DNA of 64,000 nt from Williamsia serinedens (GTDB lineage: Bacteria; Actinomycetota; Actinomycetes; Mycobacteriales; Mycobacteriaceae): positions 124,001 through 188,000 of the forward strand of contig NZ_JAMTCG010000006.1 of the NCBI RefSeq assembly GCF_024171725.1, written 5' to 3'. The notes below the pieces were generated by a model that had not been told where the DNA came from, did not search any database, and worked only from the letters and a program-made list of their open reading frames with translations. Within the stretch, counting starts at the first letter, position 1; each line of letters starts with the position of its first letter. A program made the position numbers and the translations under genes. This document shows, piece by piece, positions 45,314 to 49,808 of this stretch.

Positions 45314-46501
45314 TCAATCTGTGTAGACGGTCGTGCCCTCCGCGGGGGCGGTACGGCTGATCATCTTCGCGAGGCAGTGGTCCCGGTCGAAACCGTTCGA
45401 CCGACACCACCCCACCGCCGCCGCCGGATCGGGGAACGACTGGTCGGTGACGGTCACGAGCAGACCGGGCGAGGTGAAGACGCTCCATTCGTCGCTCTGC
45501 AGCAGTCGGGCACCGCCGAATCTCGCTGCCAGCTCGGCGAACTCCGCGAGTATGGACTTGCTGTCCCAGACGCGCCCGTCTGCCACGAGGCCCGCACGTT
45601 TCGAGCTCAGTTGCGCAACCCACCGGCCTTCGTCCTGTGCAGCGACGACGTCCCGATCGGCGGCCACCCGCGCCGCGAGCCCTGCCGCCGCACTGGACTC
45701 GGTGTCCACGCCGGCGGGGGCGAGTTGTGTCGAAGCAGTGAGTCGCACGGCGCTCGGGTCAGCAGCGGGAAGGTAGGTCACGGTTCGCGGGCTCACCTGC
45801 GTCACGGCGACCACGGCGGACTGGAGATCGGCGGTCGCGTCGGGCAGATCGAAGTAGGAACCCGGCGGGAAGACGAGCTCGACCTGCCGCGGCGTCCCCG
45901 TCAGGGCCACCGGCGTCGAGGACAGGTCGAACGACGCTGCCGCGACGAGTCGGGATCCCTCGGTCACGACGACTCCGGTCTCGTCCGACGACAGGATGTC
46001 CCCACCGGTACAGGGTGTCGACATGGTCGCATCCAGGGTCAGTCCATCCCCGCCCGGTGCGATGGTCGCCGGCCTGACCTGAGGTCCCGCGCCGCACGTC
46101 CCGACGCTGGAGGACGACGCGCCCTCCGCGTCGGCCGCCTCGGGCGGGACCACGCCCGGCGACGCGGCCGAATGCTGCCCCCACGGCGCCTCGGATGAGA
46201 GCCACCAACCACCCGTCGCGATCGCGACCACGACGACCGCGACCGACACCACGGCGATCAGTCGCACGCGCATCGTGTCGTCTCGACCGGGTGCCGGCAA
46301 CTGACTGGTCGCGGGAGACGCGGGGCGCGCCGCGACCTGTGGCGACACCACCGCGTCACGGGTGATGGGTGACGCCTTGACGAGAGAGACCGACTCGGCG
46401 GCGCCGGCGCCGGCGCCCGGCGGCAACGGGTCGACCGGTCGCCACGTCATCCAATCGAGGAGGAGTTCGCCCGAACTCGGACGCCGATCTGCTTGCGTCA
46501 C
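45314..46501 (-). CDS. Membrane-anchored extracytoplasmic protein, unknown
   Basis: 395 residues. A 75-residue cytoplasmic Pro/Ser-rich N-terminus is followed by one membrane helix ('VRLIAVVSVAVVVVAIATGG', about residues 78-98) and a 295-residue external part. The exterior alternates short strands and contains five cysteines ('GTCGAG', 'STPCTGG', 'WCRSNGFDRDHC'), possibly disulfide-bonded. No catalytic motif is recognised. The downstream partner is the PH-like membrane protein (29 bp). The glycosyltransferase gene is 157 bp upstream, so membership in the peptide operon is uncertain. Confidence 0.7.
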   Translation of the reverse strand: MTQADRRPSSGELLLDWMTWRPVDPLPPGAGAGAAESVSLVKASPITRDAVVSPQVAARPASPATSQLPAPGRDDTMRVRLIAVVSVAVVVVAIATGGWWLSSEAPWGQHSAASPGVVPPEAADAEGASSSSVGTCGAGPQVRPATIAPGGDGLTLDATMSTPCTGGDILSSDETGVVVTEGSRLVAAASFDLSSTPVALTGTPRQVELVFPPGSYFDLPDATADLQSAVVAVTQVSPRTVTYLPAADPSAVRLTASTQLAPAGVDTESSAAAGLAARVAADRDVVAAQDEGRWVAQLSSKRAGLVADGRVWDSKSILAEFAELAARFGGARLLQSDEWSVFTSPGLLVTVTDQSFPDPAAAVGWCRSNGFDRDHCLAKMISRTAPAEGTTVYTD

Positions 46502-46658: not shown

Positions 46659-47369
46659 TCAGGACGACAGCGCCGCGGTGATGCTCTCCCGCACAGCGCG
46701 GTTGGACTCGTCCCGGTCGACGGCGGTGATCTGGCCCGGCCACTTGCGGTACAGCAGACCCGGTTCGGACCGGTGACGTCCCACGCACTGCGCAGACAAC
46801 CGCGCCAGCAGCGCCACGTCCTCGCTGCGGGGAAGAGCCGTGTATCCGCCCGCGGCCCAGAACAATCGGCGCCGCACGGCCAGGGTGCACACGTGCACGT
46901 CGAGCGTCTCCGATCGACGCCACTGCTCGACGATCTCACCTCGGGCGATGTCGCGGTCACGCCCGCCCGTCGCGAAGGCCCGGGTCGTCCCGTCGGGCAA
47001 GAGGTCTAGGGCCTCCGAGGTGCACCAGCCGTAGCGCGGATCGCTCAGCGTCCGGACGTCGGCGGCGAGCGCCCCGGGCAGCAGGACGTCGTCGGCGTCG
47101 AGGTTGCGCAGCACCGAGCCGGTGGAACGGGTCGCGGCGACGTTCCGGCACAGACCCGGTCCGCCCGGTCGACCTGAGTGGACGACCGTGATGCGCGGAT
47201 CGTCGGGCAGTTCGAGATCGATCACCCCCGGCGGACCGTCCACGCAGACGATCCACTCGAGCTCGACGCCTGCCGGGAGTCGCTGCGCGACGACCGATTC
47301 GACCGTTTCCGCGAAGTGGTCGGCGACATCGGGTCCGAGTGCGGTGAGCACGCTGAGCACCGATATCAC
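46659..47369 (-). CDS. GT-A fold glycosyltransferase (family 2-like)
   Basis: 236 residues from a GTG at 47369. N-terminal 'ISVLSVLTALGPDVADHFAE' and 'VVAQRLPAGVELEWIVCVDG' form the nucleotide-sugar Rossmann half. 'VLRNLDADDVLLPGAL' contains the metal-binding DxD, and 'YTALPRSEDVALLARLSAQ' the ED motif near the acceptor site. No membrane segment, so it is a cytosolic transferase. It is last of four closely spaced minus-strand genes starting with the repeat peptide (37 bp after the ferredoxin-like gene), suggesting the peptide or its hydroxylated form could be the acceptor. Confidence 0.82.
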   Translation of the reverse strand: MISVLSVLTALGPDVADHFAETVESVVAQRLPAGVELEWIVCVDGPPGVIDLELPDDPRITVVHSGRPGGPGLCRNVAATRSTGSVLRNLDADDVLLPGALAADVRTLSDPRYGWCTSEALDLLPDGTTRAFATGGRDRDIARGEIVEQWRRSETLDVHVCTLAVRRRLFWAAGGYTALPRSEDVALLARLSAQCVGRHRSEPGLLYRKWPGQITAVDRDESNRAVRESITAALSS

Positions 47370-47406
47370 ATGAGCAATGGTAACGACTTCGGTGCGACTC
47401 CGCTGG

Positions 47407-48288
47407 TCAGGCCTCGACGACCGACTCGCACACGAAGCGGCGCACCGTCCCCGGCACCGTGGCCCGACACATGGTGTACACCGGCTCGGCCGAGAGCTCC
47501 GCCCGTACGGTCACCGCGAGCGCCGGACCGTCGCCGCCGTCGAGGGTCACCCGGGTGACGCCGTCCCCGGCGTGGACGGCCAGCGGCCGCCACGCGTCGA
47601 TGCGATCGTCCCCGGTTCGCTCGCGGGCGAAGTGCTGCGCGGCCTGCACCTCGTGGGTGAGGCAGGTCCGGCCCCGTAGATGGCGACCGTCGACCCGACC
47701 CTTCTGGTACAGCCGCACCAGCTCGACGGCGTCGGTGGTGTCGACCCGTCCGTACGACAGCCCTTCGGGCAGTACCAGCATCGTCGCCGCGAAGCGGTCG
47801 CCGCCGAGATGCGAGCACTCCCAGGTCTCTTCGGGGAACGCGGCGGCGAGGGCCGCGGTGGCAGCGCGTCCGCGGACCGCGCAACAGCGGTCGTGTTTGC
47901 CGTGCGCGCAGACCGCGACGAGCGGCCTCTCGACCGGGTCTGCGGCGGCGCCGTCGAGTGGGATGTCGAGGTACGCCTCGGGGCGGTCGACCTCACCGCC
48001 GACGATGGTCGACTCGTCCAGGCGGGTGTCGGCGATGAACCACCGCCACCGGCGTGTCCCGGGACGGCGTCCGTGACGACGGATGGCGACGATGCGCATG
48101 GACGCGGCCTCGGCGCGGCGGACGATCGCCAGCCCGAGCGCCGGGTCGATCACCGACGGCGACTCGATGAAGGCCGACGGACCCCACGGCCCGCACAGTT
48201 CGAGCAGCAGCCATCGACCGCCGGCCGATGCCGTCGCGAACATGGGTTCGTCGGCGGACAGGGAGCGGTCGCTGCAGGGGAAGGTCAC
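47407..48288 (-). CDS. Sucrase/ferredoxin-like [2Fe-2S] thioredoxin-fold protein
   Basis: 293 residues. The family's cysteine pattern is present: 'VCAHGKHDRCCAVRGRAATA' and 'ETWECSHLGGDRFAATMLVL', which resemble thioredoxin-like [2Fe-2S] ferredoxins. The N-terminus holds 'PCSDRSLSADEPMFATASAG' and 'RWLLLELCGPWGP', as in other sucrase/ferredoxin domain proteins. GTG start, 10 bp after the JmjC gene, so the two are surely co-transcribed. An electron-donor role for the oxygenase is an attractive inference, although 2-oxoglutarate oxygenases normally need no reductase. Confidence 0.85.
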   Translation of the reverse strand: MTFPCSDRSLSADEPMFATASAGGRWLLLELCGPWGPSAFIESPSVIDPALGLAIVRRAEAASMRIVAIRRHGRRPGTRRWRWFIADTRLDESTIVGGEVDRPEAYLDIPLDGAAADPVERPLVAVCAHGKHDRCCAVRGRAATAALAAAFPEETWECSHLGGDRFAATMLVLPEGLSYGRVDTTDAVELVRLYQKGRVDGRHLRGRTCLTHEVQAAQHFARERTGDDRIDAWRPLAVHAGDGVTRVTLDGGDGPALAVTVRAELSAEPVYTMCRATVPGTVRRFVCESVVEA

Positions 48289-48298
48289 CGGAACCGAC

Positions 48299-49525
48299 TC
48301 AGGAGGTGACCGGCACGACCACGGCCTCCCGCAGGAGCCGACGGATCAGCACGGCGGAGTCGGCGTCGTCGAGACCGGGGAGGGACGCCACGTCGGCGTC
48401 GCCACCGTCGACGAGGTGCCTGATCGCCTCGGCGCAGATGGCCGGGAACGAGATGGTCCGTCCGGTGAGGTGGAGGTGGACGCGGTCGGCGTCGTCGGAC
48501 ATCGTGGCGATGAGACCGTGCCGCAGACGTACGCGCTGGGCGGCGGGATCGGCCATGGCCTCCAGCGTGGCCAGCGGGCGGACGGCGACCGGTCGTGTGC
48601 GCGTGGCCATCTCGCGGGTCAGATCCGTCGCGACACCGGCACCCCACTCGTGGGCACGGTCGCGCAGCTCGTCGGCGAACGCCAACAGCGCCTTCGTCGC
48701 CTCCGCCTCGAGGGTGGCGTGGTCGGTCGGGTCGATGCCGATGGGCAGCGACGTCCGCAGGTCGCTGACCTGCCTGGCAACGCGATCGACCGCAGCGCGG
48801 ACCACGTCGACGCGGGTGAGTGCGGGGACGCCGATGGTGAGATGGATCGACGTCTCGTCGGTGGTGCGGGCACTGTGCAGCCATCCGCGGGGGAGGTACA
48901 GCGCGTCGCCGGGCGCGAGCGTGGTGTCGATGTGCGGGTCGCCGGCCACGCGGTCGGCGATGGCCTCGCGGTGATCGGTCCACGGCTGCGACGACAGCGG
49001 GCTCTCGACCACCGGCTCGTGGATCGTCCAGTGCTTGTGCCCGGCGATCTGCAACACGAACACGTCGTGCACGTCATGGTGGGAGTCGAAGCCCCGACTG
49101 CCCGGAGGGGTGATGTAGGCGTTGGCCTGCACGGGGTGTCCGAGGTCGTCGACCAGACCGCGGACGAAGTCGATGATCGGCGGCCACAGCCGGTGAAGTC
49201 CCTGCAGAACGATCGATGCACCGTCGGCGAAGGCCGCGAGTGCCTTCGCGGAGTCGACCTGGTCGCCGATCTCGGCACCGACGCCGGCCGGGGAGAGGAA
49301 CTCGTCCCGCGCGAGCAGGGATCCGTTTTTGGCCATCCGGATGAACGGGGCACGGACGCCGCGTTCGGCCAGGAGCTCGTCGACAGCCTGCGTCGAGAGG
49401 AGGTCGGCGAAGTCACGCGGCAGGTCCGCGGCCCGAGTGAGAAGAGGCCGGACACCCCAGTGACTATTGCCGAACGTCGCGGGATCGACAGCGACGCACC
49501 GGCTCAGGGTGTCCGACCTCTGCAT
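48299..49525 (-). CDS. JmjC/cupin-type Fe(II)/2-oxoglutarate oxygenase (YcfD/RoxA-like)
   Basis: 408 residues from the ATG at 49525. The double-stranded beta-helix core reads 'NAYITPPGSRGFDSHHDVHD' then 'VFVLQIAGHKHWTIHE', placing the HxD iron ligands at His149 and Asp151. 'LYLPRGWLHSARTTDETSIH' puts the distal His at 217. This matches the ribosomal-oxygenase group (YcfD, MINA53, NO66), which hydroxylates Arg or His on ribosomal proteins. The C-terminal 180 residues are the helical dimerisation and winged-helix part. The adjacent repeat peptide, 28 bp upstream in the same operon, is a plausible dedicated substrate. Confidence 0.87.
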   Translation of the reverse strand: MQRSDTLSRCVAVDPATFGNSHWGVRPLLTRAADLPRDFADLLSTQAVDELLAERGVRAPFIRMAKNGSLLARDEFLSPAGVGAEIGDQVDSAKALAAFADGASIVLQGLHRLWPPIIDFVRGLVDDLGHPVQANAYITPPGSRGFDSHHDVHDVFVLQIAGHKHWTIHEPVVESPLSSQPWTDHREAIADRVAGDPHIDTTLAPGDALYLPRGWLHSARTTDETSIHLTIGVPALTRVDVVRAAVDRVARQVSDLRTSLPIGIDPTDHATLEAEATKALLAFADELRDRAHEWGAGVATDLTREMATRTRPVAVRPLATLEAMADPAAQRVRLRHGLIATMSDDADRVHLHLTGRTISFPAICAEAIRHLVDGGDADVASLPGLDDADSAVLIRRLLREAVVVPVTS

Positions 49526-49553
49526 CTCTCAGCTCTCGTGGTGGTGCCGACGA

Positions 49554-49808
49554 TCAGGCGGTGCCGTCGGCGCCGCCGTCGTGGCCGTTCGGGTTCGAAC
49601 CGCCGTCGGCCGGGCCCTCGCCTTCGGACGCGGTGCCGTCGGCGCCGCCGTCGTGACCGTTCGGGTTCGAACCGCCGTCGGCCGGGCCCTCGCCCGCGCT
49701 CGCGGTGCCGTCGGCGCCGCCGTCGTGACCGCCCGGGTTGGAGCCGCCGTCGGCCGGGCCTTCGCCGCCCGCGCTCGAGGTGGTGATGTCGTTGTCGTCG
49801 AGTGCCAT
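49554..49808 (-). CDS. Repeat peptide, putative precursor of a modified peptide (RiPP-like)
   Basis: 84 residues from the ATG at 49808, with GAGGAGAGG seven bases upstream. A 14-residue N-terminal segment ('MALDDNDITTSSAG') is followed by three 24-residue repeats built as 'GEGPADGGSNPNGHDGG' plus 'ADGTASx'. The last copy ends at the stop. The core is only Gly, Asp, Asn, Ala, Pro, Ser, Glu, Thr and one His per unit; it has no Cys, Lys, Arg or aromatic residue. First gene of an operon with an iron oxygenase, a [2Fe-2S] protein and a glycosyltransferase. It could instead be a simple metal-binding or structural peptide. Confidence 0.75.
   Translation of the reverse strand: MALDDNDITTSSAGGEGPADGGSNPGGHDGGADGTASAGEGPADGGSNPNGHDGGADGTASEGEGPADGGSNPNGHDGGADGTA
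49557..49766 (-). repeat. Three 72-bp tandem repeats inside the repeat-peptide gene
   Basis: Each 72-bp unit encodes one 24-residue repeat; the third unit lacks its last two codons. Copies differ at only a few positions, for example the Gly/Asn codon in 'NP(G/N)GH' and the Ala/Glu at unit ends. This indicates recent expansion or homogenisation. Confidence 0.9.

Follow-up and report, generated by a model that had tools for sequence, protein, structure and literature searches.

A stretch of 64,000 nucleotides from Williamsia serinedens (contig NZ_JAMTCG010000006.1, positions 124,001 to 188,000; hereafter the window) carries on its minus strand a gene for a small Asp-rich repeat peptide, followed by genes for a JmjC-type oxygenase, a sucrase/ferredoxin-like protein and a glycosyltransferase. 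A preliminary description had assigned these four open reading frames (ORFs), separated by only 28, 10 and 37 bp, to one modified-peptide system; we found the ORFs at those positions and with those gaps. The first gene (49554..49808) codes for the 84-residue peptide, the proposed substrate, and is supported by the ORF listing and by orthologues 5' of the oxygenase gene elsewhere. It is followed by a 408-residue JmjC_2 (PF08007) Fe(II)/2-oxoglutarate (2OG) oxygenase (48299..49525), assigned from Pfam, solved relatives and the predicted fold, and by a 293-residue Suc_Fer-like (PF06999) protein (47407..48288), the proposed [2Fe-2S] redox partner, assigned from Pfam, adjacency and the predicted fold. 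The last gene (46659..47369) codes for a 236-residue GT2-like glycosyltransferase that is unmatched in 80 related loci and that we place outside the system, as a local passenger. All features given below are likewise on the minus strand.

The peptide, whose ATG is preceded by AGGAGAGG, had no hit in Pfam or NCBIfam at E values up to 1. It begins with a leader-like N-terminus, MALDDNDITTSSAG (49767..49808), recognized from the peptides of relatives, and continues with three repeat units delimited by translation and codon comparison: unit 1, GEGPADGGSNPGGHDGGADGTASA (24 residues, 49695..49766), unit 2 (24 residues, 49623..49694) and unit 3 (22 residues, 49557..49622), which runs to the stop codon. 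In pairwise comparisons over 23 codons, the units showed 4, 5 and 2 synonymous versus 1, 2 and 1 non-synonymous differences, and in the two comparisons that involve unit 3 one non-synonymous codon each is the stop. The protein sequence of the units is thus conserved. The invariant unit positions of nine aligned Mycobacteriales-type peptides read E-G-x-A-D-G-G ... H-D-G-G-A-D-G-x-A. Across the phylum the cores change wholly, as in DGGADGGADGGA, DAADADAADAD, DATDGTDGDATD, DPAGTDSAGGDADQSD and PTEDDENLDAPGEHSQDTGDE. The N-terminus contains a motif, [DE][DE]D[IM]x[TS], that is common among relatives and not universal (111 of 128 peptides, with a loose pattern and a rough choice of start codon), and Cys was found in only three of the 128 relatives' peptides. 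At three loci (L038, L081 and L102) the peptide gene changes reading frame within the repeat array, through either assembly error or slippage.

The oxygenase scored 93.2 bits against Pfam JmjC_2 (gathering cut-off 22). Its nearest solved relatives by sequence are NO66, MINA53, Bacillus subtilis YxbC and YcfD, and its predicted fold is that of a full-length NO66-like protein, the C-terminal winged-helix part included, with 16-24% identity to the solved ribosomal oxygenases in structural alignments. As the preliminary description had stated, the HxD...H triad is intact: H149 and D151, which form the HxD metal-binding motif (49073..49081), and the third ligand, H217 (48875-48877), were unchanged in all 30 proteins aligned. 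The triad and K164, the Lys for 2OG, were kept in all 43 family members chosen for closer comparison. The C-terminal winged-helix-like part (48308..48538), as delimited in the predicted fold, may provide a leader-binding site with R335, R395 and R396; in residues 332-405 the predicted strands come first, then the helices. Phages gave no match to the oxygenase. The Suc_Fer-like protein scored 60.3 bits against PF06999 (cut-off 34.9), and its putative thioredoxin-like ferredoxin part (residues 121-207, 47668..47928), placed by alignment and predicted fold, conserves C127, H129, H132, C135, C136, C158 and H160.

We found that the cassette formed by the Asp-rich repeat peptide, the JmjC_2 oxygenase and the Suc_Fer-like protein recurs across the Actinomycetota. 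Removal of duplicates left 138 loci with an oxygenase of an upper group (the window counted) and seven with distant JmjC relatives, the two groups being split at 160 bits, a value set after the loci had been inspected. An upstream ORF with at least six Asp-small-small words was present in 130 of the 138 loci and in none of 1117 control windows, which were taken from the same loci and exclude the peptide/oxygenase region; the repeat peptide thus far exceeds what chance would give. Among the eight loci that failed this test, two are masked (L033 and L072), two are frame-broken (L038 and L081) and one is cut by a contig end (L137); L150 and L153 have a repeat peptide of another type, and L145 has an acidic, non-repetitive ORF. 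None of the seven distant relatives passed, and none had a Suc_Fer gene. The Suc_Fer gene is adjacent to the oxygenase gene in 126 of the 138 distinct loci. No other gene family recurred in more than four of 48 long loci (seven of them with distant relatives), all frames considered.

The pairing of peptide and oxygenase was examined further in 80 named loci, the best of at least 565 confirmed candidates, each with up to 6 kb of flank on either side (less than 5.9 kb in 19); the closest of these best 80 are from Williamsia. A tblastn match to the peptide was present in 80 of 80, with the peptide intact in 75 and masked or frame-broken in five. An automatic ORF rule likewise recovered the peptide in 75, including L033 and L102, which are masked or frame-broken, and missed it in five, where the ORF is longer (L087 and L109), N-masked (L072) or has frame-broken repeats (L038 and L081). 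Suc_Fer adjoins the oxygenase in all but one of the 80 (L110). In a set of 101 genomes, the window's own and 100 relatives, the oxygenase was found in 40 (E <= 1e-10), of which 38 are strong matches (E <= 1e-79); of the weaker two, one is in pieces (G072) and the other is a distant homologue (G009). The peptide profile matched 25 of the 101 genomes, all within the strong 38, and a divergent Asp-rich peptide lies upstream of the oxygenase in 12 of 12 read among the other 13, the strong copy of G067 being left out. Matches to Suc_Fer were found in 65 of the 101 genomes (E <= 1e-10), including oxygenase-free ones, the low scorers being a different set. An oxygenase that mostly occurs without the peptide, the case that had been named as refuting the pairing, is thus not what we found, and the data support the conclusion that peptide and oxygenase form a unit. 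That the peptide lies beside its own oxygenase, and usually beside Suc_Fer too, in many actinobacteria suggests that it is the substrate.

The glycosyltransferase behaves differently, and of the four-gene unit proposed earlier we retain the first three members, Suc_Fer in most loci, and not the fourth. Its gene product matches Pfam Glycos_transf_2 (31.1 bits, cut-off 23.3), and matches were found in five of 61 genomes. No match was detected in the 80 named loci within the flanks compared, W. deligens and a sister Williamsia locus included, and in Williamsia G002 the gene lies between pknG and ackA without a match to oxygenase, peptide or Suc_Fer. In G074 the glycosyltransferase and oxygenase genes are far apart. 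Because none of the 80 loci has a match and the site in G002 lacks the cassette, the glycosyltransferase appears to be a local gene that flanks the cassette by chance; it was rejected as a cassette member for want of conservation with the peptide, and the O-glycosylation suggested in the preliminary description is likewise not supported. The pknG-ackA placement of the cassette is common to the window and W. deligens (L031). Suc_Fer directly abuts pknG in W. deligens and in L037, where no ackA match was found within the flank compared, and L032, L034 and L179 match neither pknG nor ackA. The position of the cassette varies within Williamsia. In the window, the gene between that for the glycosyltransferase and pknG (45314-46501) encodes a 395-residue protein that neither Pfam nor NCBIfam matched up to E = 1.

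Which residue would the oxygenase modify? The preliminary description had named His, Asp or Asn, and the comparison favours Asp. Asp persists through very different cores, mostly beside small residues: in 126 distinct cores, cut by a rough rule, the next residue is Gly, Ala, Ser or Thr for 1396 of 1502 Asp residues. Of 134 peptide tails, chosen for at least 10% Asp, 23 have no His and 37 no Asn within their last 50 residues. Two of the 23 (L026 and L168) have a His farther upstream and a third (L145) is not a repeat peptide, so that the peptides without His number about 20. Since neither residue is universal in the peptides, His or Asn is unlikely to be the target, and both were rejected as a universal target on the grounds that some cores lack them. 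The active site was compared with NO66 by alignment, with NO66 positions counted along the alignment, a numbering that agrees with the published Asn326, Tyr328 and Asn376. N135 corresponds to Asn326, Y137 to Tyr328, V106 to Arg297 and G232 to Ser421. According to the available part of the literature on NO66, its pocket holds the substrate His by Tyr328 and Ser421. The Tyr is kept as Y137, and all 43 members chosen have Gly232 where the His pocket of NO66 has Ser421. V106 is present in all 43, as is H153, at the place of NO66 Ile344; H153 might meet a carboxylate.

We consider it reasonably likely that the three genes form a cassette resembling those for ribosomally synthesized and post-translationally modified peptides (RiPPs), in which the oxygenase oxidizes many Asp residues of the peptide, most simply to beta-hydroxyaspartate, with the Suc_Fer-like protein as redox partner. 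The gene pairing, the conservation, the intact catalytic residues and the predicted folds are the observations on which this proposal is built; we infer from them the substrate relation, Asp as the target, the hydroxylation, the redox role and the metal binding. The repeat peptide, encoded immediately 5' of the JmjC_2 oxygenase gene, would be the substrate of this NO66/YcfD-type enzyme. The acidic motif near the N-terminus of the peptide may be bound by the winged-helix-like C-terminal domain of the enzyme as the repeats are worked through in turn. The Suc_Fer protein, with its putative [2Fe-2S] cluster, would donate electrons, either to keep the oxygenase iron ferrous over many turnovers or to reduce product-bound ferric iron. 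The product would probably be an anionic peptide, possibly one that binds metal. Plain 2OG hydroxylation requires no external electrons per turnover, and the Suc_Fer-like protein may therefore rescue oxidized enzyme iron or act on a product-bound metal.

Several observations weigh against Asp oxidation within such a cassette. In L145 both a repeat peptide and Suc_Fer are missing, and the cores of L150 (repeats containing Tyr, Arg and Gln) and L153 (PTEDDENLDAPGEHSQDTGDE) are of another type. In 12 of the 138 loci, some of them at contig ends, the oxygenase gene has no Suc_Fer gene beside it; L110, L145, L150, L153, L164 and L177 have at least 6 kb of downstream sequence, and for L177 (genome G081) Suc_Fer is strongly matched some 8 kb farther down the same contig. 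The leader-like motif is clearly absent from some peptides, for example those of L121, L122 and L175, and the C-terminus of the oxygenase resembles no PqqD-type RiPP recognition element (RRE) by Pfam match or by hhalign (probability below 1%). No protease or exporter family recurs near the cassette in the 48 long loci, and a strict pattern for an IdeR-like box gave 0 matches in the 120 bp scanned 5' of the 80 peptide genes. Finally, the Asp richness of the tails is partly a matter of selection, because the tails were chosen for Asp; the independent test is that of the control windows.

In siderophores, beta-hydroxyaspartate serves as a ligand for iron. It seems possible, if rather doubtful, that a single stand-alone JmjC enzyme turns the repeat arrays into chains of poly-beta-hydroxyaspartate, that these chains bind ferric iron or calcium, and that the Suc_Fer-like protein is a dedicated ferric reductase by which the metal is released; such ribosomal peptides would then make up a widespread metal-binding class. 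Against the involvement of iron stand the lack of an IdeR-like box in the 80 upstream regions and of a conserved transporter. In Leptolyngbya boryana (L216, 2431-7942), a sucrase ferredoxin gene lies between the gene for an iron-siderophore binding protein and a pair coding for a major facilitator superfamily transporter and a non-ribosomal peptide synthetase, and its product is possibly a ferric-siderophore reductase. By analogy, this placement amid siderophore genes hints at a ferric-reductase step. The sucrase ferredoxin gene of Tsukamurella is not among siderophore genes.

Other readings of the gene pairing have to be weighed against Asp oxidation. The oxygenase could hydroxylate His, one per repeat (GHDGG), in the manner of NO66 and MINA53, the Asp-rich stretch merely carrying the His. 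All nine aligned Mycobacteriales-type peptides keep the His, the closest relatives of solved structure hydroxylate histidine and the NO66 Tyr is kept; with some 20 His-free peptides and the uniform replacement of Ser421 by Gly on the other side, we regard this as quite improbable. We give as little credence to a hydroxylase of ribosomal proteins, or other household enzyme, whose gene lies by chance beside that of the peptide, the latter acting as inhibitor, chaperone or metal carrier and not as substrate. The predicted fold is that of the ribosomal oxygenases, and Fe(II) binding by an Asp-rich peptide is conceivable, but arrays that vary in unit and copy number and have a periodicity of Asp better suit a multi-site substrate. 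Moreover, some JmjC relatives elsewhere likewise adjoin short peptides, and presence in 40 of 101 genomes fits a household role poorly.

Alternatively, the reaction may not be a simple Asp hydroxylation; desaturation, crosslinking or a backbone or decarboxylative chemistry would give a different RiPP product. The outcomes of 2OG oxygenases vary, desaturation by FIH being mentioned in the available part of PMC9994133, and a redox partner is odd for plain 2OG hydroxylation. Since catalytic residues and fold are of the hydroxylase type, we hold this to be unlikely. Least credible is that four genes act together and that the hydroxylated peptide is O-glycosylated, a reading which we disfavour strongly: in the window the glycosyltransferase gene does follow on the same strand after 37 bp, but it is unmatched in the 80 named loci, occurs without the cassette in G002 and is far from the oxygenase gene in G074.

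Pairs of a JmjC gene and a short peptide gene may extend beyond this group. The oxygenase matched 133 plasmid records, and in an unsystematic survey, in which each plasmid case is a single record, we opened the neighbourhoods of eight; a short peptide-like ORF lies 5' of the JmjC gene in four. In Streptomyces clavuligerus (L187, 3772-7119), a 48-residue peptide with ADNDPSDP and ADPDPFDP precedes the JmjC gene, with an S9 peptidase gene on the opposite strand and an ABC transporter gene nearby. Two other Streptomyces records (L191, 2746-4991; L192, 2749-5000) have a peptide of 45-47 residues ending in SDGND, a JmjC gene and an aldo/keto reductase gene, and a peptide of the same length and ending lies upstream of a Streptomyces-type JmjC gene in L157; this arrangement looks like a second JmjC-peptide cassette. 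On a plasmid of Nostoc sp. C057 (L193, 2506-5150), a short ORF, a cupin gene and a sucrase ferredoxin gene are consecutive, with a second short peptide-like frame between the short ORF and the cupin gene. No clear peptide-JmjC pair was seen in Pseudanabaena (by a LanM gene), Dolichospermum, a third Streptomyces or an Escherichia coli plasmid. The latter, small and mobilizable (L214, 3890-7803), has short ORFs, an ABC transporter gene and a cupin-domain gene in a layout like that of small-peptide clusters; 25 Escherichia records match, and the 11 among the matches listed are all about 7.9 kb. In L156, a distant JmjC gene adjoins an ORF that, by eye, resembles TfuA of thioamide RiPPs. With four of eight neighbourhoods showing it, the pairing of JmjC_2 and short peptide, sometimes with Suc_Fer, seems wider than this clade, and a larger family of short peptides modified by JmjC enzymes, Streptomyces and Nostoc included, may have the cassette as one of its branches.

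Like NO66, MINA53 and YcfD, the oxygenase belongs to JmjC_2 (PF08007) and has the HxD...H triad, the Lys and the full-length fold with its C-terminal part; unlike them, it lacks the His-pocket Ser of NO66, its gene is paired with a peptide gene, and a ribosomal substrate is not indicated. JmjC hydroxylation of RiPP precursors is already known. As far as the available portions of the sources go, BipG makes gamma-hydroxyornithine on the biphenomycin precursor (PMC12707348) and PbsQ adds 15.99 Da to a RiPP precursor (PMC12257519). These JmjC/cupin-like enzymes (BipG/BpmG and PbsQ) thus resemble the proposed oxygenase in hydroxylating a ribosomal precursor peptide, but they are described there as tailoring Orn in biphenomycin-type clusters with an MNIO, a radical SAM enzyme, an arginase and a protease, whereas here the oxygenase is the sole recognizable modifying enzyme and the core consists of Asp repeats. 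The accessible text of PMC12710340 (2025) reports PF08007 proteins with an RRE-like domain and bacterial homologues in RiPP-like contexts; unlike the cassette, these JmjC-RRE proteins are given there no bacterial precursor, Suc_Fer partner or target residue. The Suc_Fer-like protein shares with Apd1 and the thioredoxin-like [2Fe-2S] ferredoxins a predicted thioredoxin-like core with candidate Cys/His ligands; those of Apd1 are two Cys and two His in the part of the literature available, whereas the protein here has several conserved Cys and His and its gene is tied to the oxygenase. AspH would give the same product, beta-hydroxyaspartate, but acts, in the available account, on epidermal growth factor-like domains, whereas the cassette peptides hardly contain Cys.

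The arrangement found here, a short precursor gene beside a dedicated modifying enzyme, is that by which RiPPs are recognized. Among the papers listed by a literature search, with subscription papers largely outside its reach, none describes a cassette of Asp-repeat peptide, JmjC_2 and Suc_Fer, and there is a fair chance that the cassette is a class of its own. If the proposal is right, it would be a RiPP-like class whose sole recognizable modifying enzyme is a homologue of the ribosomal oxygenases. Bacterial JmjC_2 proteins, which among the matches listed are mostly named just "cupin domain-containing protein", would gain a likely and directly testable kind of substrate, and bacterial Suc_Fer proteins would gain a partner. 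As polymers that bind metal, poly-hydroxyaspartate peptides would be out of the ordinary, and the three genes that encode the system are small and easily expressed.

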